From assembly GCF_030849025.1 (NCBI RefSeq), contig NZ_CP118224.1, positions 2,849,001-2,913,000 of the forward strand: DNA of 64,000 nt, written 5' to 3'. Each line of letters opens with the position of its first letter. Within the stretch, counting starts at the first letter, position 1. A program made the position numbers and the translations under genes. This document shows positions 7,543 through 62,549 of this stretch, one piece after another. The notes beneath the pieces were generated by a model. The model was not told where the DNA came from, ran no database searches, and saw nothing but the letters and a program-made list of their open reading frames with translations. The DNA is from Oceanimonas pelagia (GTDB lineage: Bacteria > Pseudomonadota > Gammaproteobacteria > Enterobacterales > Aeromonadaceae).

Positions 7543-7554
7543 GGGGGTAAATAC

Positions 7555-7935
<381 letters not shown>

Positions 7936-22870: not shown

Positions 22871-22884
<14 letters not shown>

Positions 22885-23155
22885 GTTGGCTCCGGGAATC
22901 GGTTTCGGGCAGCTCAAACAGCGAGCCTACCCCATACAAGTCGGCAAGAGGATAAAAACTGTCGGGGGGCGAACACAGCGTCAGCCGCTGGTTTCGGGCC
23001 GCCAGGGCCTGGCTCCACTGCACCAGCAGTGCCAGTCCCACCGAGTCGATACGCTCCACGGTGCTCAGATCGGCCGTGGATGCGGCGAACAGGGTATCAC
23101 GCTCCGCCCACCAGGCGGGCAACTGCTCCCGGGTCAGCGGACGGGTCAGTTTCAT
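22871..23155 (-). CDS. mlaB: STAS-domain subunit of the Mla lipid transporter
   Basis: Cytoplasmic STAS protein that stabilises the MlaFE complex and is needed for its activity. It has 94 residues, with the STAS core LSTVERIDSVGLALLVQWSQAL. Start overlaps the mlaC stop (ATGA). Confidence 0.93.
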
Positions 23156-23784
23156 TGGGCGGTGTCCAGCGGGGTCACCGGCTTGCTGGTCAGCTCGCGC
23201 AGCTGGCGGCTGACCGCATCGATGCCCTTCTGGCGGATCAGGCCGCTCAGCTCCGACTGCTTGGCGGAAAGCAGGCTGATGCCTTCGGCAATCATGTCAA
23301 ACACCTTCCATTCGCCGGTACGGCCGTTTTTACGCAGCTTGAACTCCAGGCGAATTTCGGGTTTGTTCGGCTCCAGCACCGTCACCGGCACCGTGGCCAG
23401 TTTGTCTTCCGGCCCCACCGCGCCCTTGCCGATGTTCACGGTCTGCTGCTTGTAGGCAGCCAGAGCGTCGGCATAGGTCACCACCAGATAATCGCTGAAG
23501 GCCTCAACGAAACGCTCGCGCTGCTCGGCAGTGGTCTTGTTGAGCTGGCTGCCGATTACCCGGAAGGCGGAAAAACGCACGTCCACCGCCGGCAGCATTT
23601 CTTCCCGCACTATGGTGCGCAGATGTTCGGGGTTGGCCGAGATTTTGCCTTGTTCCTGCTCCAGCCGGTCAAAGGTGCGCTGGGCCACCTGATCCACCAG
23701 CAGGTAGGGATCGGTGGCGGCCAGGGCCGGCAGGGCAAACAGGCCGGTCAGCACCAGCAGCCAGGACATCAGTTGTTTTTTCAT
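23152..23784 (-). CDS. mlaC: periplasmic phospholipid shuttle protein MlaC
   Basis: Carries phospholipid between the outer-membrane MlaA complex and inner-membrane MlaFEDB. It has 210 residues, a cleavable signal ending at LPALA-ATD, and the MlaC/Ttg2D fold with ERFVEAFSDYLVVTYADAL and FDMIAEGISLLSAKQSELSG motifs. It lies between mlaD and mlaB. Confidence 0.95.
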   Translation of the reverse strand: MKKQLMSWLLVLTGLFALPALAATDPYLLVDQVAQRTFDRLEQEQGKISANPEHLRTIVREEMLPAVDVRFSAFRVIGSQLNKTTAEQRERFVEAFSDYLVVTYADALAAYKQQTVNIGKGAVGPEDKLATVPVTVLEPNKPEIRLEFKLRKNGRTGEWKVFDMIAEGISLLSAKQSELSGLIRQKGIDAVSRQLRELTSKPVTPLDTAQ

Positions 23785-23810
23785 GATTCCTCCTCGGGGA
23801 ATGCGCCGGT

Positions 23811-24284
23811 TCAGTCTTTACCGATGGAATAAATAAACTTGCCAATCAATTCTTCCAGCACCAGAGCGGACTGGGTGTCGGCGATGGTGTCGCCGTCCCT
23901 GAGCATGCCGATGCCCATGTCCTCATCGGCAAAGCCCGGGGTAATGCCCAGATACTGCTCTCCCAGCAGGCCCGAGGTCAGAATGGCGGCGGTGCTGCTC
24001 TCGGCAAACTCGCCCGCGTCCTTGTTCATCGCCAGCGTGACTACCGGCACCTGGCTCTCGGCATCCAGGCTGATGTTGGCTACCCGGCCCACCACCACGC
24101 CGCCCACCTTGATGGGAGAGCGCACCTTGAGACCGCCGATGTTGTCGAAGCGGGCATACAGGGTATAGGTTTCACCCTGTCCGTTCACACTCACTCCGGC
24201 CACCTTGAACGCCAGCAGCAGCAGGGCGCCGATACCGGCCAGCATAAAGCAGCCGACGCTGAATTCCAGTTTGCTGTATTTCAT
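23811..24284 (-). CDS. mlaD: MCE-domain protein MlaD
   Basis: Membrane-anchored hexameric MCE ring of the Mla transporter. It has 157 residues: one N-terminal membrane helix (about 7-29), then the MCE domain (ARFDNIGGLKVRSPIKVGGVVVGRV...). The C-terminal tail is short, unlike the second MCE protein of this window at 58007-58924. Confidence 0.95.
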   Translation of the reverse strand: MKYSKLEFSVGCFMLAGIGALLLLAFKVAGVSVNGQGETYTLYARFDNIGGLKVRSPIKVGGVVVGRVANISLDAESQVPVVTLAMNKDAGEFAESSTAAILTSGLLGEQYLGITPGFADEDMGIGMLRDGDTIADTQSALVLEELIGKFIYSIGKD

Positions 24285-24290
24285 TATCGC

Positions 24291-25070
24291 TTACCCGAAC
24301 ATGATGGCGGTGAGCACGAAGTCGAGCCCCAGTACCGCCAGAGAAGAATGAACCACGGTACGGGTGGTCGCCTGACTGATGCCCGCCGCCGTGGGCCTGG
24401 CATCAAACCCGTTGAACAGCGCAATCCAGGTGACCACCAGGGCGAACACCAGGCTCTTGATAAAGCCCTGCATGATGTCTTCGTGCCAGTCCACCGCCGC
24501 CTGCATGGCGGACCAGAAACCGCCCTCGTCCACCCCCAGCCAGTCCACGCCCACCAGCTTGGCCCCCCAGATGCCGATCATGTTGAACAAAAACGCCAGC
24601 AGCGGCATGCTGATGAACCCGGCCCAGAACCGGGGCGCCACCACCCGGCGCAGCGGATCCACGCCCATCATTTCCAGGCTGGACAACTGCTCGGTGGCCT
24701 TCATCAGCCCCAGCTCGGCGGTCAGCGCCGAGCCGGCCCGGCCGGCAAACAGCAGGGCGGTGACCACAGGCCCCAGCTCCCGCAGCAACGACAGCGACAC
24801 CAGCGGCCCCAGACTGCCCTCGGCGCCAAAGTCCACCAGCACATTATGTCCCTGCAGCGCCAGCACCATGCCGATAAACATGCCCGACACCAGAATAATC
24901 AGCACCGACTGCACGCCCACCACATGCAACTGCTGAACCAGCAACGGAAAGTGCTTTTGCGGTTGCGGCCGCCCCACCAGAGCATGGGTCAGCATAATGC
25001 CGGCCCGGCCCAGGGCGGTGAGCCCGGACACACCCTGGCGGCCGAGGCGGCCAATCACGTCAATCAACAT
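24291..25070 (-). CDS. mlaE: Mla lipid transporter permease MlaE
   Basis: Inner-membrane permease of the phospholipid ABC transporter. It has 259 residues, with five or so hydrophobic segments and the family signature [38 protein letters not shown], the coupling-helix region contacting MlaF. Start overlaps the mlaF stop by 11 nt. Confidence 0.96.
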
Positions 25071-25860
25071 AAGCCAGAGACTCCCTGTAGTCCGGGGCCG
25101 GATAGTGGAACGGCACCGGGCCGTCCGCTTCGCCCCGCAAAAACTGGATCACCTGGGGATCCTGGTGGGCTTTCAGCTCTTCGGGGGTGCCGGCGGCGAT
25201 CACCTTTTTATTGGCGATGATGTAGGCGTAATCGGCAATGGTCATCACCTCGTCGACGTCGTGGGTTACCACGATGGAGGTCAGCTGCTGGGCCCGGTTG
25301 AGCTCGGCGATCAGCCGCACCAGCACGCCCATGCTGATGGGATCCTGGCCGGCAAAAGGCTCGTCATACATGATCAGCTCCGGATCCAGGGCAATGCTGC
25401 GGGCCAGGGCCGCGCGCCGGGCCATGCCGCCGGAGAGTTCGGACGGAAACAACTGCGCCGCGCCGCGCAGGCCCACCGCCTCCAGCTTCATCATCACCAG
25501 GGTGTGAATAATGGCTTCCGGCAGGCCGCTGTGCTCCCGCAGGGGAAAGGCCACATTGTCGAACACCGACAGGCCGGTAAACAGGGCCCCGCTCTGAAAC
25601 AGCATGCCCATGCGCCGGCGCACTTCGTACAACCGGCGGCGCCCCAGGGACGGTATCGACTCGCCGTCAAAGCGCACCTCGCCGCTGTCGGGCTTGATCT
25701 GGCCGCCGATCAGGCGCAGCAGAGTGGTCTTGCCAATGCCGCTGGGGCCCATGATGGCGGTGATCTTTCCGCGCGGAATGTCCATGCTGATGCCCTGGTA
25801 AAGGGTGCGATCACCATGGCTGAAGCAAAGGTCCCGTATCTCGACAAGGCTTTGACTCAC
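25060..25860 (-). CDS. mlaF: Mla lipid transporter ATPase MlaF, GTG start
   Basis: ABC ATPase with Walker [10 protein letters not shown], signature LSGGMARR, Walker [14 protein letters not shown] and H-loop VVTHD. The product is 266 residues from GTG 25860. I prefer this over an in-frame ATG at 25974 because a good promoter at 25886-25914 would start RNA at about 25879, downstream of that ATG, and because E. coli MlaF begins at the same point. First gene of mlaFEDCB-ibaG-murA. Confidence 0.93.
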
Positions 25861-25885
25861 ACTCTGTCCCCGCAAAAAAGAAAGG

Positions 25886-25914
25886 ATTGTAGGGGTTCGG
25901 CTGAACATCGGCAA
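25886..25914 (-). promoter_or_regulatory. sigma-70 promoter of the mla operon
   Basis: On the minus strand TTGCCG (25914-25909), 17-nt spacer, TACAAT (25891-25886). The leader before the mlaF GTG is about 19 nt. Confidence 0.72.
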
Positions 25915-54937: not shown

Positions 54938-56665
54938 ATGAGCCGGCTTTCCCTGCCTTATCTTTTTTTCTGGTGTTTTGCCGCCTGGGCCCTGGGCGGC
55001 ATGCACTTTTTTATGCACAACCCTGGCGGCGCCGGCCTGTATCTGCCGTTCAACATGACCGGCTGGATGCTGGTGTCGCTGATGATTGCCCTGGGGCTGT
55101 GGCAGCTGACCCGCAACCGGGCGGTGGTCTGGAGCCGGTTTCATCTGGGGTGCTGGCTGGCCTTTGCGCTGATGCTGGTGCCCCTGCTCTATCCCGGCGC
55201 CGAGCTGGCGGATCGGGCCCTGCCCCGGCTGGCGGGGCTGGCCGGCGGCCTGCTGTTCTGGTTTGCCCTGCTGCAGTGCCGCTTTGACGAGCACGGCCGC
55301 TGGCGCCTGCTCTATGTGCTGCTGGCGGCGGTGACCCTGGAAATACTGCTGGGGCTGGTGCAGTACTACCTGCTGGAGCCAGGCAACCCCATTGGTTACA
55401 ACACCAAAACCAACCGCCCCTACGGCATTTTTCAGCAACCCAACGTCATGGCCAGTTTTATGGCCACCGGGCTGATGCTGGCCTGGTATCTGTGGCTGGA
55501 AGACAGACGGCCGCTGCCCGCCGTGCGCCGGCTCTGGCTGGGCGCCGTGCTGCTCACCACCTCGTTGCTGCTGGTGGTGCTGCAGTCCCGGGTAGGGCTG
55601 CTGGGCGGTCTGACCGGCGTGCTGCTGCTGTTGCCGCTGAGCTGGCAGCGAGGACGCCGCGATACCCTGATGCTGCTCGGGCTGGTACTGCTGGGCATGG
55701 CGCTGGCGCTGGTGTCCATGACGCTGGTGGACGGAGTGCAGCGGGGGGCCGAGGTCTACAGCGATCCGGGCGTGCGCAAATACTACTGGCAGCAGAGCCT
55801 GGCGCTGATCGGCCAGCACCCCTGGACCGGAGTCGGCTACGGCGATTTTGAACGCCAGTTTATGGAATTTTACGCCGCCCAGCGGGAGCAGATTGCCACC
55901 CTGCCGCCCATGGAGCCCAACCTGGATCATCCCCATAACGAGCTGCTGTTCTGGGGCGTGGAAGGGGGCCTGCTGCCGGTGCTGGCCATCATCGGGGTAG
56001 CGCTGATGTTTGGGCGGCGGCTGTGCCGGGCGCCCTGGCGCCAGGCACTGGCGCTGGCGGCGCTGGTGTGGCCCATCGCCCTGCACAGCCAGACCGAATA
56101 CCCCTTTTACCATTCCCTGGCACACTGGGTAGCCCTGCTGGTGCTGCTGTACTGGATTGACGGGCGCCTGCTGCCGCCGCGGGAAGCCCCCTATCGCCAC
56201 CGCTTGCTGGCACGCTTTAGCGCCCTGCTGATCCCGGCGCTGGTGGTGCCCTTTATGGCCACCGGGCTGCACAGCGCTCGGCTGATCACGCAATATGAAC
56301 GGGGCGGCGGCAAGGAGCCGGAACTGCTGCTGGCGGTCAGCAATCCCCTGGCCTGGCTGGGCCGGCTGGAGTTCAGCGCCATGTCGCTGCGGCTGACGGT
56401 GGCCGCAGCACAGCAGGATACCGAAGCGCTGCAGGCCTACCTGGACTGGGGCCGGGAATTTGTGCGCCATACCCCCAGGGCCGGTATTTACCGCAACATG
56501 GTACTGGCCCTGCACCATCTGGACCGCCCCGAGGAAGCCCGGCGACTGCTGCAACGGGCCCGCTACTACTACCCCAGGGAAGAAAGCCTGCACGACGACC
56601 GCATTCAGCGGGCGCTGGACGCGGCCGCCCATCCGGCGTCGGCCGGCTCGGGCGCCGACGCCTGA
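54938..56665 (+). CDS. PglL/O-antigen ligase-family O-oligosaccharyltransferase
   Basis: Polytopic membrane protein of 575 residues with about 11-12 hydrophobic segments. The large periplasmic loop contains YNTKTNRPYGIFQQPNVMASF and the Wzy_C-type HPHNELLFWGVEGG motif. A TPR-like C-terminal tail (about 480-560) follows, as in PglL enzymes that glycosylate pilins and other periplasmic proteins. WaaL-type LPS ligase is the alternative. AAGGA precedes ATG 54938, 19 nt after uvrA. The 3' end overlaps the convergent gene by 61 bp. Confidence 0.82.
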   Translation: MSRLSLPYLFFWCFAAWALGGMHFFMHNPGGAGLYLPFNMTGWMLVSLMIALGLWQLTRNRAVVWSRFHLGCWLAFALMLVPLLYPGAELADRALPRLAGLAGGLLFWFALLQCRFDEHGRWRLLYVLLAAVTLEILLGLVQYYLLEPGNPIGYNTKTNRPYGIFQQPNVMASFMATGLMLAWYLWLEDRRPLPAVRRLWLGAVLLTTSLLLVVLQSRVGLLGGLTGVLLLLPLSWQRGRRDTLMLLGLVLLGMALALVSMTLVDGVQRGAEVYSDPGVRKYYWQQSLALIGQHPWTGVGYGDFERQFMEFYAAQREQIATLPPMEPNLDHPHNELLFWGVEGGLLPVLAIIGVALMFGRRLCRAPWRQALALAALVWPIALHSQTEYPFYHSLAHWVALLVLLYWIDGRLLPPREAPYRHRLLARFSALLIPALVVPFMATGLHSARLITQYERGGGKEPELLLAVSNPLAWLGRLEFSAMSLRLTVAAAQQDTEALQAYLDWGREFVRHTPRAGIYRNMVLALHHLDRPEEARRLLQRARYYYPREESLHDDRIQRALDAAAHPASAGSGADA

Positions 56666-57414
56666 ACAAAGCGCACCCGGAACAGCCGGGGCCACCACTT
56701 GCCGGTGAGGTAAAACTCACCGGTCTCGGGATTGTGGGCAATGCCGTTGAGCACCGCTTCCCGGTGCGCCACCCGGTCGCTCAGGGGCAACAGGGGGGAA
56801 GCGTCGATCACCCCGTCCACCTCGCCACTGGCCTTGTGAATACGCAGGATGCGCGCCTGTTTCCAGACATTGGCGTAGATGTGCTCCCCGGCGCAGGCCA
56901 GGGCGTTGAGCCGGGGCTGGGACCGGCCATCAAGACGCACCTCAAGCCGTTGCTGCAGTGAAAAATCCACCGGGCTGCGCCGCTGCAGGCTGGCCGAGCC
57001 GTCGCTCATCCACAGGTGGTCACCGTCAAAGCACAGGCCCCAGCCCTCGCCTTCATAGGAGTGCGCCATTTCCAGCTCCAGCCCGGGCAGCCGCCACACC
57101 AGCGCCAGCCCTTCCCGCCAGGTGAGCTGTACCAGCCGCTCTCCCACCCGGGCCAGGCCCTCGCCAAACAGGCTGTCGGCCAGCGCCATTTGAAGCTCTA
57201 GCTCGCCGTTGCGTCCGTTCAGCCGGCGCAGGCTGGACTGGCCATACAGGCCGGTGCTCACGTACAACCGGCCCTGGTGCCACTCCAGCCCCTGAGTGAA
57301 GGCATTGATGTCGTGAGGCAGGGTCTCCAGCACCCGCACCGTCAGCCGCTCCACCGCCATGGCCTGGCCACTCAGTGCCAGTAACACCAGCATTGCCCAG
57401 CGCCGCACTGTCAT
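56605..57414 (-). CDS. secreted glutamine cyclotransferase-like protein
   Basis: 269 residues with a signal peptide (MTVRRWAMLVLLALSGQAMA-VER). The beta-propeller pattern of plant/bacterial-type glutaminyl cyclases is visible: LPHDINAFTQGLEWHQGRLYVSTGLYGQSSLR, EGWGLCFDGDHLWMSDGS, LNALACAGEHIYANVWKQARI and VLNGIAHNPETGEFYLTGKWWPRLF. These would convert N-terminal Gln to pyroglutamate in the periplasm. Start overlaps the preceding lipoprotein stop (ATGA), making it the last gene of the ClC/MCE operon. Confidence 0.85.
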   Translation of the reverse strand: MTVRRWAMLVLLALSGQAMAVERLTVRVLETLPHDINAFTQGLEWHQGRLYVSTGLYGQSSLRRLNGRNGELELQMALADSLFGEGLARVGERLVQLTWREGLALVWRLPGLELEMAHSYEGEGWGLCFDGDHLWMSDGSASLQRRSPVDFSLQQRLEVRLDGRSQPRLNALACAGEHIYANVWKQARILRIHKASGEVDGVIDASPLLPLSDRVAHREAVLNGIAHNPETGEFYLTGKWWPRLFRVRFVQASAPEPADAGWAAASSAR

Positions 57415-58010
57415 TCAGCCACGGCCTGGCTCAGCAGCCAGTCGTTCAGCGCCGGCGCCAGCCGTTCGGCGGCCCGGCCCAGCGCCGCCACCAGGGCATC
57501 GGCCTGCAGGTTTGCCAGCGGCTCGCGCTGCTCAAAGCGCCGGCTGGCCACCATGTGCCTGTCGGCGGTGCGCAGCAGCTGGGCGTCAAAGCGAATCACC
57601 GCTTCCTGCCGGCCGGCGCTCAGATCCGCTTCAAAGGCGCGCAGGGTACCGGTCAGCTCCCAGTCGGCCTGCACGCCCTCGTCTTCCCGGCTGAGTCCCC
57701 CCAGGCGGGCATCCCGTCCCAGGGCGTCCAGCAGCCAGTCCTGCCACAGCTCCGGCAGCGGCGCGCTCCAGCGGGCACCGCCATGGGCCTGGTAGGACTG
57801 GCGCCCGGTCAGCACCAGCAATCGGTTGCCGTTGAGCACCCCGCTGGCCCTGGGCCGGGCCAGCCGCAGACCGTTGAGCCGCCCCTCCTCGTCACTCGGC
57901 ACCAGCGCCGCCGGCGGCAGGCGGTAACGGCTCACCGGCTCCGCCGCCGGCAGCACCGAACAGCCCGCCAGCCCCAGCAGGGCCATCAGCATCACAACAC
58001 CTCTGATCAC
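57411..58010 (-). CDS. PqiC-like ABC transport auxiliary lipoprotein
   Basis: 199-residue lipoprotein: GTG start in a GTGA overlap with the MCE gene, then a signal with lipobox LAG-C (Cys 17). The mature part has the PqiC/YmbA-type pattern (EPVSRYRLPPAALVPS ... VLNGNRLLVL ... YQAHGGARWSAPLPELWQDWL). PqiC attaches MCE channels to the outer membrane. Its place right after the MCE gene supports the same role. Confidence 0.86.
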   Translation of the reverse strand: MIRGVVMLMALLGLAGCSVLPAAEPVSRYRLPPAALVPSDEEGRLNGLRLARPRASGVLNGNRLLVLTGRQSYQAHGGARWSAPLPELWQDWLLDALGRDARLGGLSREDEGVQADWELTGTLRAFEADLSAGRQEAVIRFDAQLLRTADRHMVASRRFEQREPLANLQADALVAALGRAAERLAPALNDWLLSQAVAE

Positions 58011-58924
58011 GGTTTGAATTCCTCCATGGATTCCCGCTCCAGCAGGGTGGCGGCGGGATCCTGTTGCAGTTGCCGGGTCACGTCCCCCAGCGCCCTCAGG
58101 GTACGGCGCAATTCCCGCAGCGCCGGCTCCAGCCCGGCCAGCCCCTGCAGGCCCGCTTCCAGCGCCGGTTGCTGCTGCGCCAGCAGCCGCTCCAGCCGTT
58201 CGCTCAGCCGCTGCAGGCTGGCAGCGGTGGCAGCGGTATCGGCCAGCATGGGTTCGCCGTGCTGTGCCAGTTGCCGGTCGAGCCGGGCCAGCATGGCGTC
58301 CAGCCGGGTGGCGGCGCCGGCCAGGGCATTCAGCCCCTCGCTCAGGCTTCCCTGCTGTTGCGCCAGGGTGGCGCTGACCTCGTCCAGGCTGGCCAGCATG
58401 CGGCCGACATGAGCGGCATTCTGCGGGGTGAGCAGCCGGTTGGCATTGTCGAGCAGGGTGTTCAGGCTCAGCATCAGCTCCTCGCTGCTCACCCGCAGCC
58501 GGGCCAGAGGCGAGGGCTCGGCCCGGATCACCGGGATCTGCCCGCTGCCGTCGGCCAGCAGGGGGCTGGCGGGAGAGCCGTGGCTGAGCTCGATATTGGC
58601 GGCGCCGGTAATGTTGGCCAGGGCCAGCCGGGCCCGGGTGTCGGTCTTGACCGGGGCATCGGTGGCAATGCGCACCCGGGCCCGCACCTGGCGCGGATCC
58701 TCCGGGTTCAGGGTCAGGCTCTCCACCTCACCCACCCGTATGCCGCTGTATTGCACCGGGCTGCCCACCGACAGCCCGGACACCGGCTCGCTGAACAGAA
58801 TATCGTAGCGGCGCAGCTCGCGCTCGTCGCCGGTTTTGGCCAGCCAGAGCACAAAGGCCAGGCCGGCGGCTGCCACCAGCAGGGTAAATGCACCAATCAG
58901 CACGTGATGTGCCCGGGTTTCCAT
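58007..58924 (-). CDS. MlaD-type MCE protein of a second lipid transporter
   Basis: 305 residues: N-terminal membrane helix (about 10-27), one MCE domain (about 38-117, ILFSEPVSGLSVGSPVQYSGIRVGEV), and a long helical C-terminal region (about 150-290) with Leu/Gln/Ala heptads. The long tail is longer than in MlaD (157 residues at 23811-24284) and could form a needle-like tube. It begins 3 nt after the ATPase stop. Confidence 0.9.
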   Translation of the reverse strand: METRAHHVLIGAFTLLVAAAGLAFVLWLAKTGDERELRRYDILFSEPVSGLSVGSPVQYSGIRVGEVESLTLNPEDPRQVRARVRIATDAPVKTDTRARLALANITGAANIELSHGSPASPLLADGSGQIPVIRAEPSPLARLRVSSEELMLSLNTLLDNANRLLTPQNAAHVGRMLASLDEVSATLAQQQGSLSEGLNALAGAATRLDAMLARLDRQLAQHGEPMLADTAATAASLQRLSERLERLLAQQQPALEAGLQGLAGLEPALRELRRTLRALGDVTRQLQQDPAATLLERESMEEFKP

Positions 58925-58927
58925 AGG

Positions 58928-59707
58928 TTACTCCTTGTTGCCCCGAGCGGCCTGCTGCGCCGCCCTGCCCCGCGGGCCGTGAAAATAATCCCGAATCCAG
59001 GGATCCTGGGTGGCAACCACCTCGGCCAGCGTGCCCGCCGCCTGCACCCGCCGCTGCCCCAGCACCGCCACCCGGTCGCAGCAGGCGTACAGGGTGTCGA
59101 GATCGTGGGTGACCAGCACCACCGTCAGCCCCAGAGCGTCGCGCAGGGTCAGCAGCAGACGATCAAAGGCCGCCGCCGACACCGGATCCAGCCCGGCGGT
59201 GGGCTCGTCCAGCAACAGGATCTGCGGATCCAGTGCCAGCGCCCGGGCCAGGGCTGCCCGTTTGATCATGCCCCCGGACAGACTGGACGGATAGCGCTGC
59301 CCCGCCAGTGCCGGCAGCCCGGCCAGCGCCAGCTTGATGTCGGCGAGCTCACTGGCCCGCGCCCGGCTCAGGCCGGCGTGCTCGATCAGCGGCAGGGCGA
59401 TGTTTTCCAGCACCGTCAGCGAAGAAAACAGCGCTCCGCTCTGAAACAGCACCCCCATGCGCCGCTCCAGGGCACTGCGCTGTGCCGCCGGCAGGGTCAG
59501 CAGATCCTGCTGCCACAGCCGCACCTCGCCGGCGTCGGGCCGGTGCAGACCGATGATGGAACGCAGCAGCACCGACTTGCCGCTGCCGGACCCGCCCACC
59601 AGACCGAGGATCTCGCCCTCGATCACATCGAGATCCAGGTGTTCGTGCACCACCTGGGGGCCAAAGCGGTTGCGCAGATCCCGCACCTGTATGACGGCCC
59701 CGCTCAC
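58928..59707 (-). CDS. MlaF-type ABC ATPase, GTG start
   Basis: 259 residues from GTG 59707, inside the permease stop (GTGA). Walker A GGSGSGKSVL, signature LSGGMIKR, Walker B ILLDEPTAGLDP, H-loop VTHD. The LSGGM form and GALFSSLTVLENIALPL match lipid-exporting MlaF relatives. An open frame continues upstream to 60373, but that part is a shadow of the permease. Confidence 0.92.
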   Translation of the reverse strand: MSGAVIQVRDLRNRFGPQVVHEHLDLDVIEGEILGLVGGSGSGKSVLLRSIIGLHRPDAGEVRLWQQDLLTLPAAQRSALERRMGVLFQSGALFSSLTVLENIALPLIEHAGLSRARASELADIKLALAGLPALAGQRYPSSLSGGMIKRAALARALALDPQILLLDEPTAGLDPVSAAAFDRLLLTLRDALGLTVVLVTHDLDTLYACCDRVAVLGQRRVQAAGTLAEVVATQDPWIRDYFHGPRGRAAQQAARGNKE

Positions 59708-60813
59708 CAGCCCATCTCCATCAGGAACAGGGCAGCGATGGCATCGAGCAGGATCACCACAAAGATCGACTGTACCACGCTGGAGGTGGTGTGCTCCCCC
59801 ACCGACCGGGCGCTGCCCGCTACCTTGAAGCCTTCCAGGCAGCCGATCAGCGCAATCAGGATGGCAAACAGCGGCGCCTTGCCCAGCCCCACCAGCAGGT
59901 GACGCACCGGCACCTCCTGCACGATGGCGAGAAAGCGCGCAGGGGCAATATCCAGCGACAGCACCCCCACCAGGGCACCGCCAAACAGCCCGCTGAGTAT
60001 GGCGATAACGGTCAGCAGCGGCAGGGTCAGCAACAACGCCAGCACCCGGGGCAACACCAGCAGGGCAATCGGATCCAGCCCCTGGGCGCGCAGGGCATCC
60101 AGCTCCTGGTTGACCTTCATCGAGCCCAGCTGGGCGGTAAAGGCGCTGGCGGTGCGGCCGGCCAGCAGAATGGCGGTGAGCAGCACGCCGAATTCGCGCA
60201 TAAAGCTGTAGGCCACCAGATCCACCGTGTAAATGGTGGCGCCGAAATTGGCCAGCACGGTGGCGCCGAGAAAGGCCACCACCGCCCCCACCAGAAAGGT
60301 CAGCAGCGCCACAATGGGCACCGCATTGAGACCACACTGGTGCATTTGCGCCACCAGCGCGGTAAGGCGCCACTGGCGCGGACGAAACGCCAGTGCCAGG
60401 CCGGTGCTCAGGGTCAGGCCGGTAAAGCCAAGCAGCAGCCGGCCCTGCCGCCAGCCGGAATGGGCGTATTCACCCAGCCGGGCCAGGCCATCACTCCAGT
60501 GGGCCCGGGGCGCGGGCGCCGGCTCGCGGCCGCTCATGGTCCCGGCCACCGCCAGCAGCAGGGCCCGCTGGCCGTCGCTCAGGCCGGTGGCCTCGCGGGC
60601 CAGCGCCAGCAAGGGTGCCCCCAGCCGTTGCCACAGCAGACCGGCACCGGCGGTGTCTAGCCGGGTCAGCCCGCTGCCGTCCAGAGCCACTATGCCTCGC
60701 ACCGGCAGGGAGCCCAGCGCGGCGTAAAGCCGATCGTGGTGGGCCAGGGTCCAGTCGCCATTCAGCAGCAGCCGGCCATCACTGAGCTGCCAGCCACTCT
60801 CGTGCTTGCTCAA
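59704..60813 (-). CDS. MlaE-type permease with fused N-terminal STAS domain, TTG start
   Basis: 369 residues. The first about 100 resemble a STAS domain (LSDGRLLLNGDWTLAHHDRLYAALGSLPVRGIVALDGSGLTRLDTAGAGLLWQ), i.e. MlaB and MlaE in one chain. The permease follows with the signature GRTASAFTAQLGSMKVNQELDALRAQGLDPIALLVLPR. TTG 60813 is chosen: GGGGGA lies upstream, it overlaps the ClC stop (TTGA), and nothing conserved lies further upstream, though the frame is open to 61449. Confidence 0.9.
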   Translation of the reverse strand: MSKHESGWQLSDGRLLLNGDWTLAHHDRLYAALGSLPVRGIVALDGSGLTRLDTAGAGLLWQRLGAPLLALAREATGLSDGQRALLLAVAGTMSGREPAPAPRAHWSDGLARLGEYAHSGWRQGRLLLGFTGLTLSTGLALAFRPRQWRLTALVAQMHQCGLNAVPIVALLTFLVGAVVAFLGATVLANFGATIYTVDLVAYSFMREFGVLLTAILLAGRTASAFTAQLGSMKVNQELDALRAQGLDPIALLVLPRVLALLLTLPLLTVIAILSGLFGGALVGVLSLDIAPARFLAIVQEVPVRHLLVGLGKAPLFAILIALIGCLEGFKVAGSARSVGEHTTSSVVQSIFVVILLDAIAALFLMEMGW

Positions 60814-62468
60814 TACAGTCCCCCTTCTTCGGTCAGCATGTGCACCAGCCGGGCCCGGGTCACCAGCCCCCGGCCGCGACGCACCGGCACCAGAAAACCG
60901 GCGCCGGTGTCGTCCTGCAGCGTGCGCAGGGCATCCAGCAACGACATGTCCCGCTCCAGCCGCTGCAGCCGGCGCTCCGGGGTGAGCAAGGCGTCGAGGG
61001 TGTCCGGCGCCATCCGTTGCTCCAGCTGCGCAGGGTTGAGCAGGTAATAGTGCTGATCCCGCTTCACCACCAGGGCCGTGGCCTTGCTGCGGGGCGGGGC
61101 GCCCTCTCCGCTCCACTCCACCAGGCTCATGTCGGCCAGCTCCGACAGATAGCGCTGCGCCAGAGCGGTGCGCAGCGGATGGGTCTGTAACTCCTGGCCG
61201 CGCACCCGAAGCTGGGTGATCACCAGGGACGGCAGATGAAATCCATGCTGGCACAGCAGGTTGGCGCCCAGCACCACCACCATGGCCGGCAGCATGGCCT
61301 CGGCACTGAGGGACAGCTCCAGCACGGTGGCGATGGCCGCCAGCGGAGCGTGCAGCACGGCGCTCATCATGGCGGCCATGCCCAGCAGGGCGTACAGGGC
61401 CGGATCGGAAGCACCCGGCAACAAGGCCCCGGCCACACTGCCGGCACACACCCCCAGCATCAGGGTGGGCGCAATCTGGCCCCCGGGCACCCCCAGACCG
61501 ATGGCCGCCGCCGTGGCCAGCAGCTTGGCCGCCAGTATGCCCAGCAGCAACGGCCAGGGCAGCCCGTCGCTCAGTGCAAGATTGATGGTGTCGTAACCGG
61601 AGCCGAGGATCTGGGGCGTGACCAGCGCCAGCCCCCCGGTTATGGCGCCCGCCAGCAACAGGCGAACGGCACGGGATGTGAGCGGCAGTCGAATAAATAC
61701 CAGCACCAGCCGCTGAAACAGCGCCGCCAGCAATCCAACCCAGAGTCCGGTAAGCAGCAGACCGGGCAACTCCCGATAGGAGGCCAGCGACAGGCTGACC
61801 GGCTCCAGAATAGCGTGCGTACCCAACAGGCCATTGGTGAGGGCCGAGGCGGTAATGGCGGCGGCGATAATGGGCGCAAAGCCGAGCAGGCTGTATTCCA
61901 TCAGCACCACCTCCATGGCGAACAGCACTCCTGCCAGCGGCGTGTTAAAGGCCGCCGAAATGGCCGCCGCCGTGCCGCACCCGAGCAACAGCCGCAACTG
62001 GCTGGGCGGACGCCCGCTGAGCTGGCCGATCTGGCTGGCAATGCCCGCGCCCAGATGCACCGTGGGGCCTTCCCGTCCCACGCTGTGACCCGAGCCCAGG
62101 GCAATGAGCGCGGCCACAAACTGAAACCCGATATTGGCCGCCGGAATCCGGCCCTGGCCAAACTGCAGCCGCTCCAGCACATAGGCCAGCCCCACCGACT
62201 GACACGCCGGCGGCGTCAGCCGGTAGAGCAGGATCAGCAGCAGGCTGCCTGCCAGCGGCAGCCCCAGTTGCCAGTGCCAGGTCAGGGCTTCAAAGTCTTC
62301 CAGGTTTTTGCCATTCAGGCCGCCCAGGGTGGCGTTGAGCAGGAACAGAAAACTCATCATCACCAGGCTGGCGATAATGCCGGTCAGCACCCCCAGCAGC
62401 ACCAGCGGCAGCAGGCTGCCGGCGCGGCGCGAAAACAGGCGCTGGATCAGGTTATCTGCTTGGCTCAT
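60810..62468 (-). CDS. ClC-family chloride channel/antiporter with C-terminal CBS region
   Basis: 552 residues from ATG 62468. ClC selectivity motifs are GSGHSVGREGPTV, with the gating Glu in GREGP, GVPGGQIAPTL, and a C-terminal half of the double-triangle fold. GSGHS differs from GSGIP of E. coli ClcA, where the Pro follows; this variant occurs in other bacterial ClCs. Two CBS-like stretches end the protein (about 430-550). It is upstream of, and coupled to, the lipid transporter. GTG 62483 is another possible start. Confidence 0.9.
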   Translation of the reverse strand: MSQADNLIQRLFSRRAGSLLPLVLLGVLTGIIASLVMMSFLFLLNATLGGLNGKNLEDFEALTWHWQLGLPLAGSLLLILLYRLTPPACQSVGLAYVLERLQFGQGRIPAANIGFQFVAALIALGSGHSVGREGPTVHLGAGIASQIGQLSGRPPSQLRLLLGCGTAAAISAAFNTPLAGVLFAMEVVLMEYSLLGFAPIIAAAITASALTNGLLGTHAILEPVSLSLASYRELPGLLLTGLWVGLLAALFQRLVLVFIRLPLTSRAVRLLLAGAITGGLALVTPQILGSGYDTINLALSDGLPWPLLLGILAAKLLATAAAIGLGVPGGQIAPTLMLGVCAGSVAGALLPGASDPALYALLGMAAMMSAVLHAPLAAIATVLELSLSAEAMLPAMVVVLGANLLCQHGFHLPSLVITQLRVRGQELQTHPLRTALAQRYLSELADMSLVEWSGEGAPPRSKATALVVKRDQHYYLLNPAQLEQRMAPDTLDALLTPERRLQRLERDMSLLDALRTLQDDTGAGFLVPVRRGRGLVTRARLVHMLTEEGGLY

Positions 62469-62500
62469 CACGAGGTTCCGCACGCATCAGGAGAGTTCAT
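62468..62500 (-). CDS. possible 10-residue leader peptide upstream of the ClC gene
   Basis: ATG 62500 follows a very strong ribosome site (GGGGAGGGG, 62513-62505) at 4 nt spacing. It encodes MNSPDACGTS and stops with TGA whose last base begins the ClC ATG (TGATG). The ribosome site is far better placed for this frame than for ClC, so ClC may depend on reinitiation. No known family. It could be a chance short frame; the overlap and ribosome site are directly visible, function is inference. Confidence 0.45.
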   Translation of the reverse strand: MNSPDACGTS

Positions 62501-62549
62501 TATTCCCCTCCCCGCCGGATAAAACCACTTTTGCAGCAAGTATTTATGG

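Follow-up and report, generated by a model that had tools for sequence, protein, structure and literature searches.

A run of six tightly packed genes lies on the minus strand (56605-62468) of a 64,000-nucleotide stretch of the Oceanimonas pelagia genome, hereafter the window (C1:2849001-2913000 of a 3.59-Mb genome). It encodes a ClC-family anion transporter, an MlaE-family permease, an ABC ATPase, an MCE protein, a PqiC-like lipoprotein and a secreted glutamine cyclotransferase (Table 1). The four middle genes (57411-60813) are predicted from their sequences to form an Mpc-type (Mla-Pqi chimeric) lipid transporter, a new example outside Brucella whose assembly into a complex and function in the envelope are assigned by homology. 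It is probable that the outer two genes, for the ClC protein and the cyclase, are lineage-specific neighbours of this core and have no obligatory functional tie to it. Since both are specific to a small group, and related species lack them or have them apart, the operon appears mostly ordinary.

The four-gene core resembles the Mpc system

The Mpc system of Brucella abortus is encoded by mpcEFDA, that is, a permease with an N-terminal STAS domain (MpcE), MpcF, a long-tailed MCE protein (MpcD) and a PqiC-like lipoprotein (MpcA), and its parts were co-purified (PMC12436622). The same four parts were found in the window. The permease matches TIGR00056 with 224.6 bits (cut-off 212.2) and PF02405, and has a built-in N-terminal STAS-like domain; this region matches STAS_2 below the cut-off and aligns in relatives, its LDTAGA stretch being at least 90% invariant among 11 sequences, that of the window included. 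For the ATPase the top NCBIfam model is MlaF (172 bits, under the equivalog cut-off of 441). The MCE protein has 305 residues, compared with 331 in Brucella, and carries a single MCE domain (one PF02470 match; 29 chosen sequences were aligned) followed by an extended helical C-terminal tail. Structure prediction of this tail had been proposed in the initial annotation, and the AlphaFold2 (AF2) model shows an N-terminal helix, the MCE domain and the expected tail helices (139-299), the latter at low confidence. No significant periodicity was detected in the tail at any of the five periods tried (best p 0.08, at 3.6).

The MCE protein aligns over residues 1-305 with PDB chain 13hr_I (4.9e-79), and the lipoprotein over residues 8-198 with 13hr_A (2.2e-38). 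The entries 13hr, 13hq and 13hs contain an MCE protein together with an ABC_trans_aux lipoprotein, a likeness drawn from search matches and one alignment. As in the E-F-D-A order of Brucella, the PqiC-like lipoprotein gene comes last, and the order permease, ATPase, MCE protein, lipoprotein was found in all 20 core-bearing genomes of the genus. Neither operon includes a gene for MlaC or MlaA. Unlike Brucella, the host here also has a canonical Mla system, and its core lies between ClC and cyclase genes. The core is thus regarded as an Mpc unit because Mpc has the same four parts, because the MCE protein and the lipoprotein match 13hr, and because none of the 77 listed outside loci described below shows ClC or cyclase in the DNA examined.

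By homology, the STAS-fused permease and the ATPase would reside in the inner membrane and be topped by a ring of MCE protein copies, whose helical tails would build a hydrophobic needle spanning the periplasm. At the outer membrane, the tip of the needle would be anchored by a ring formed of the PqiC-like lipoprotein. ATP would power the movement of phospholipids through the needle, by a mechanism and in a direction that we infer. Fixed stoichiometry had been deduced from the overlapping starts and stops of the six genes; overlaps do not fix stoichiometry, and the ratio of 2:2:6:8 in the Mpc model is one that its authors assume (PMC12436622).

The arrangement also agrees with a wider class of MCE loci. 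Of type I MCE genes, 59% were reported to have permease and ATP-binding genes upstream, and DUF330 is the commonest domain downstream of them (PMC5561183); the single-MCE gene of the window has the same neighbours on the same sides. Unlike the account given in the neighbourhood section of that paper, where they are unmentioned, ClC and cyclase genes are present here. The operon of XCC0632, a PqiC homologue, contains mlaFE homologues and an MCE gene, and a similar mix occurs in Legionella (PMC10897342). The combination of MCE, STAS and PqiC parts, on which the initial annotation is corrected here, is within known biology: it is that of Mpc and fits type I MCE genes with DUF330.

Two other identities were considered and rejected. 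The operon shares a PqiC-like lipoprotein with E. coli PqiABC and, unlike it, has one MCE domain instead of three and an ABC transporter in place of PqiA (PMC10897342), which is not matched by any of the six genes. With E. coli MlaFEDB(C) it shares the permease and ATPase families and an MCE domain; unlike that system, its six genes include no MlaC, MlaA or separate MlaB gene, and its MCE protein scores 49.5 of the 135 bits required by the MlaD equivalog model. A canonical Mla set is found elsewhere in the window, from 22871 to 25902 or 25974 (22871-25860 in the initial annotation). In this set MlaF, MlaE and MlaD score above their NCBIfam cut-offs, MlaC is level with its own (195 of 195 bits) and MlaB reaches only 45.7 of 90 bits. 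The genome has five MCE-domain matches at three places (the canonical Mla set, the Mpc-type operon and C1:~1,482,000), and the suggestion that the operon is a second lipid route, distinct from canonical Mla, is upheld. At the third place (L238, C1:1481642-1482688) a frame of 597 residues carries three matches to the MCE domain and is, judged by that number, PqiB-like. The window also contains a bacterial class A RNase P RNA (7553-7935, minus strand, 319 bits).

Table 1 Genes of the six-gene run in the window, in the order in which they are read.
Gene product	Position	Strand	Start and family match
ClC-family anion transporter, 552 aa	60810..62468	minus	ATG start (GTG at 62483 possible); Pfam PF00654 Voltage_CLC 4.8e-76
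MlaE-family permease, N-terminal STAS-like domain (MpcE-like)	59704..60813	minus	TTG start overlapping ClC stop; PF02405 MlaE 1.1e-68
MlaF-like ABC ATPase (MpcF-like)	58928..59707	minus	GTG start; PF00005 ABC_tran 1.1e-30
Single-MCE protein, ~168-residue predicted helical tail (MpcD-like)	58007..58924	minus	ATG start; PF02470 MlaD 5.5e-17
PqiC-like (DUF330 / ABC_trans_aux) lipoprotein, LAGC lipobox (MpcA-like)	57411..58010	minus	GTG start; PF03886 7.1e-19
Secreted glutamine cyclotransferase, PF05096 family	56605..57414	minus	ATG start; Glu_cyclase_2 5.1e-80

Core loci outside the genus

A scan of GTDB contigs was evaluated for the best 80 of 583 relatives, three of which are in the genus of the window. 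The 77 loci outside it belong, by title, mostly to Pseudomonas, Halomonas, Marinobacter and close relatives; 67 of them are at least 20 kb long and the remaining ones show less flank. Within the DNA examined (tblastn, E 1e-4), ATPase and MCE genes were found at all 77 outside loci and the lipoprotein gene at 75, and neither ClC nor cyclase was matched at any (0/77 each). MCE genes of relatives without ClC or cyclase are what the initial annotation had named as speaking against its linkage of the six genes.

The sister genus (g3) gave a similar picture, with the core in four of its five genomes and no cyclase match in any of the five. Of its four core-bearing genomes, two gave no ClC match (G030, G035), and the matches in the other two (G024, G033) were distant and lay on stretches other than that of the core. 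The nearest frames on both sides of the core, scanned in 10 of 11 sampled loci (nine of the 77 outside loci, one in the sister genus), encode no ClC or cyclase; they are of mixed families, several without a family match. Among 15 loci with distant ClC genes from other genera (mostly of 3-4 kb, four of 12-13 kb), one had an ABC ATPase match beside ClC (L127) and no other adjoining core gene was found.

Other genes adjoin the core in individual genomes. In Halomonas sp. A11-A the core match begins 142 nt downstream of a gene for a SulP-type sulfate permease that itself has a STAS domain (L134 8147-9859), and an AI-2E-type transporter gene, another addition to the core, lies about 23 nt past the lipoprotein match in G033 of the sister genus (L056 10505-11620). 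At one of the 77 outside loci, that of Serpens gallinarum (L158 13504-14726), PA2779-family and PA2778-type peptidase genes adjoin an Mpc-type core on the core's strand.

Distribution and gene order within the genus

Twenty-three genomes of the genus, the window's own among them, were compared. All 23 have the cyclase, 20 the STAS-permease core and 19 a close ClC (at least 63% identity), one copy of which (G005) is broken. Two gene orders predominate. In type A (7/23) the ClC gene is followed by those of the permease, ATPase, MCE protein, lipoprotein and cyclase (ClC-E-F-D-C-cyclase); in type B (10/23) the run E-F-D-C-ClC is separated from the cyclase by two opposite-strand genes, first that of a PA2778-type peptidase and then one of the PA2779 family. 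The two are exact circular permutations of five genes, with ClC first in seven and last in ten of the 17 genomes that have both ClC and core. Three genomes have the core without a close ClC (G016, G020, G022), two have ClC without the core (G001, G021), and one has neither (G018, whose contig stops just past FetA). The conservation expected of a ClC-core-cyclase linkage is therefore contradicted by these core-only and ClC-only genomes. Relaxed tblastn searches gave no significant ClC match at the empty sites of G016, G020 and G022 (best E 0.36) and, in the stretches of G001 and G021, no significant core match beyond the ClC ends included; on the G018 contig the ATPase query matched only other ABC genes.

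Only in the seven type A genomes do the cyclase and lipoprotein genes touch; in 12 of the 13 other core-bearing genomes two opposite-strand genes separate core and cyclase. FetAB-like genes precede the cyclase in five of the 23 genomes; the FetB-like gene matches UPF0014, and both it and the FetA-like gene are under NCBIfam cut-offs. Core, FetAB and cyclase are all on one strand in G016, which represents a second way in which gene loss has aligned the cyclase with the core.

Junctions of the six genes

Reading of the sequence, and subsequent recomputation, gave five junctions from ClC to cyclase: a TTGA overlap, a GTGA overlap, a 3-nt gap, a GTGA overlap and an ATGA overlap. Both the packing and the junctions are as the initial annotation had them; so are its coordinates, 56605-62513, in all but the end, 62513 being 45 nt past the ATG of the ClC gene. 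In the junction comparison of ClC-first genomes (35 junctions, with start sites picked by position) starts at -4, -4, +2 to +10, -4 and -4 recur in 7/7 genomes, the window included. For G007, G009 and three type B genomes the ATPase junction comes from a row that carried the label of the FetA query. In type B, ClC starts at +3 or -4 from the lipoprotein stop in 8 of 10 genomes, and in G017 at a TTG 11 nt past it (+11). In G005, also of type B, the first part of the broken ClC begins with an ATG at +3, the comparison having used the wrong frame. This ClC gene (L049 10673-12412) is frameshifted near residue 216, possibly as a pseudogene or through a sequencing error in this one-contig genome. 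Downstream, a convergent Wzy/PglL-type gene (54938-56665) adjoins the cyclase gene of the window, and their 3' ends overlap by 61 nt (56605-56665).

The six genes may be co-transcribed. A terminator scan of the region found nine terminator-like sites where 3.4 were expected.

The ClC protein and the cyclase

The ClC protein is predicted to be an ordinary ClC-family anion transporter, as it matches the Voltage_CLC profile and keeps the gating glutamate (E133, in GREGP), which is invariant in all 15 genus proteins chosen for alignment, that of the window included. Equally invariant in these 15 is a valine (V187) at the position of the inner proton glutamate, presumably E203 in the numbering of ClcA, and we take this glutamate to have the role in proton transfer that its name implies. 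In an alignment to solved ClC chains this valine falls on the second Glu of the EE pair in 1kpl, a pair that solved bacterial exchangers have. ClC channels carry Val at this site; the replacement departs from the pattern of an H+/Cl- exchanger and is not decisive for the transport mode. A structure model of the protein had a mean predicted local distance difference test score (pLDDT) of 48.7 and was not used.

The PF05096 match spans residues 18-249 of the cyclase, which is by family membership a predicted glutamine cyclotransferase; we take the family to be the one labelled 'plant-type'. Homologues in the PDB are 3nok, 3nol, 3mbr and 2faw, solved bacterial members of the family. The signature reads LNAL in the window, compared with LNEL or LNDL in several relatives and PDB chains. 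In Bacteroidetes, cyclases act on exported proteins whose N-terminal residue is Gln; the formation of pyroglutamate in bacteria is described as not well understood (PMC10653852).

History of the locus

Type A forms one clade in four trees: that of MurA DNA (95/92; 22 genus genomes, G008 having no match, and 5 of 6 outgroup genomes) and those of ClC (midpoint-rooted), MlaE+F and cyclase+PglL (13 rows under half filled), with 100/100 each. Type B and G022 form one clade by MurA (98/97), and type B is one clade in the ClC tree (100/98). The MurA tree does not settle the placement of the five FetAB-bearing genomes between types A and B. Type A groups with core-less G001 by ClC (100/98), with G016 and G020 by MlaE+F (96/96), and with G016 and G018 by cyclase+PglL (99/98). 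A foreign origin of the type A ClC was rejected, there being no sign of it in the ClC tree.

The simplest ancestor would have had E-F-D-C-ClC, the opposite-strand peptidase and PA2779 genes, and then FetAB and the cyclase, followed by repeated losses. ClC would have joined the operon in one genus-level clade, and its ancestral place was most likely behind the lipoprotein gene. It would have moved to the front on the branch leading to the Oceanimonas-type genomes, as could occur by tandem duplication and loss of alternate copies. The cyclase would be an independent resident of the locus that became coupled to the lipoprotein gene once two or four intervening genes had been lost.

Are the ClC protein and the cyclase partners of the transporter?

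Several observations weigh against separable neighbours around an Mpc-type core. ClC adjoins the core, in the same direction, in 17 of 17 genomes having both, at either end, as a neighbour by accident would not have to. The STAS_2 match of the permease (6.9e-6, 26.6 bits) is under the Pfam cut-off of 29.2. Four of the terminator-like sites are on the operon strand (minus) inside ClC and MlaE coding DNA, and the promoter scan found no promoter-like site on that strand and one on the plus strand, where 0.7 were expected. The MlaE+F tree splits type B, five genomes of which join type A, G016 and G020 (94/99); this grouping, if true, would imply that the order of type B is the ancestral one. In what sequence the losses occurred is uncertain, as the deepest branches of the genus tree do not resolve.

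The retained adjacency could mean that ClC is functionally tied to the transporter, through charge or volume balance or outer-membrane repair under salt stress, and that selection keeps it at either end. The tie would explain why the two stay contiguous despite the change of position and why ClC junctions are tight in both orders, and the invariant valine is compatible with a special transport mode. We nevertheless regard it as unlikely: the core occurs without a close ClC, and ClC without the core, within the genus itself, the G005 copy is frameshifted, none of the listed outside loci has ClC, and tandem duplication with loss would preserve the adjacency without selection. That the six genes are one dedicated machine, its stoichiometry fixed and one of its components matured by the cyclase, as the initial annotation was read to propose, is very improbable. 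A cyclase start overlapping the lipoprotein stop (ATG in six, GTG in one) is indeed available in all seven ClC-first genomes, but the cyclase is also present in three genomes without the core, is seen at no listed outside locus, and has no obvious target with N-terminal Gln among the operon products, since the N-terminal anchor of the MCE protein should be retained and Cys should be the first residue of the lipoprotein. A role of the cyclase as a maturation factor of the transporter was rejected on the opposite-strand genes that part it from the core in 12 of the 13 other core-bearing genomes. The chance that the six frames are accidental in a GC-rich genome is negligible; long open frames are common on both strands of the window, but all six match their families strongly, and recurrence of the same start offsets in every genome of ClC-first order argues that the arrangement is not due to chance. 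The proposed link of glutamine cyclisation to lipid transport thus fails its test, and that of ClC is weak. An Mpc-type core with ClC and cyclase as lineage-specific neighbours is the reading we prefer.

In our literature searches no record of a ClC-MCE or cyclase-MCE linkage was found. An operon that resembles a single machine would, in this case, have been assembled from separable modules within one genus. The ClC adjacency, retained in every genome with both parts, is the one point worth testing. It is unlikely that the ClC channel or transporter is an accessory part of the Mpc lipid bridge in this clade; if it were, anion flux would aid or regulate the movement of phospholipids from one membrane to the other. 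A clade in which ClC is first, last, absent or alone offers a natural set for testing whether the neighbours of MCE genes are functional partners.

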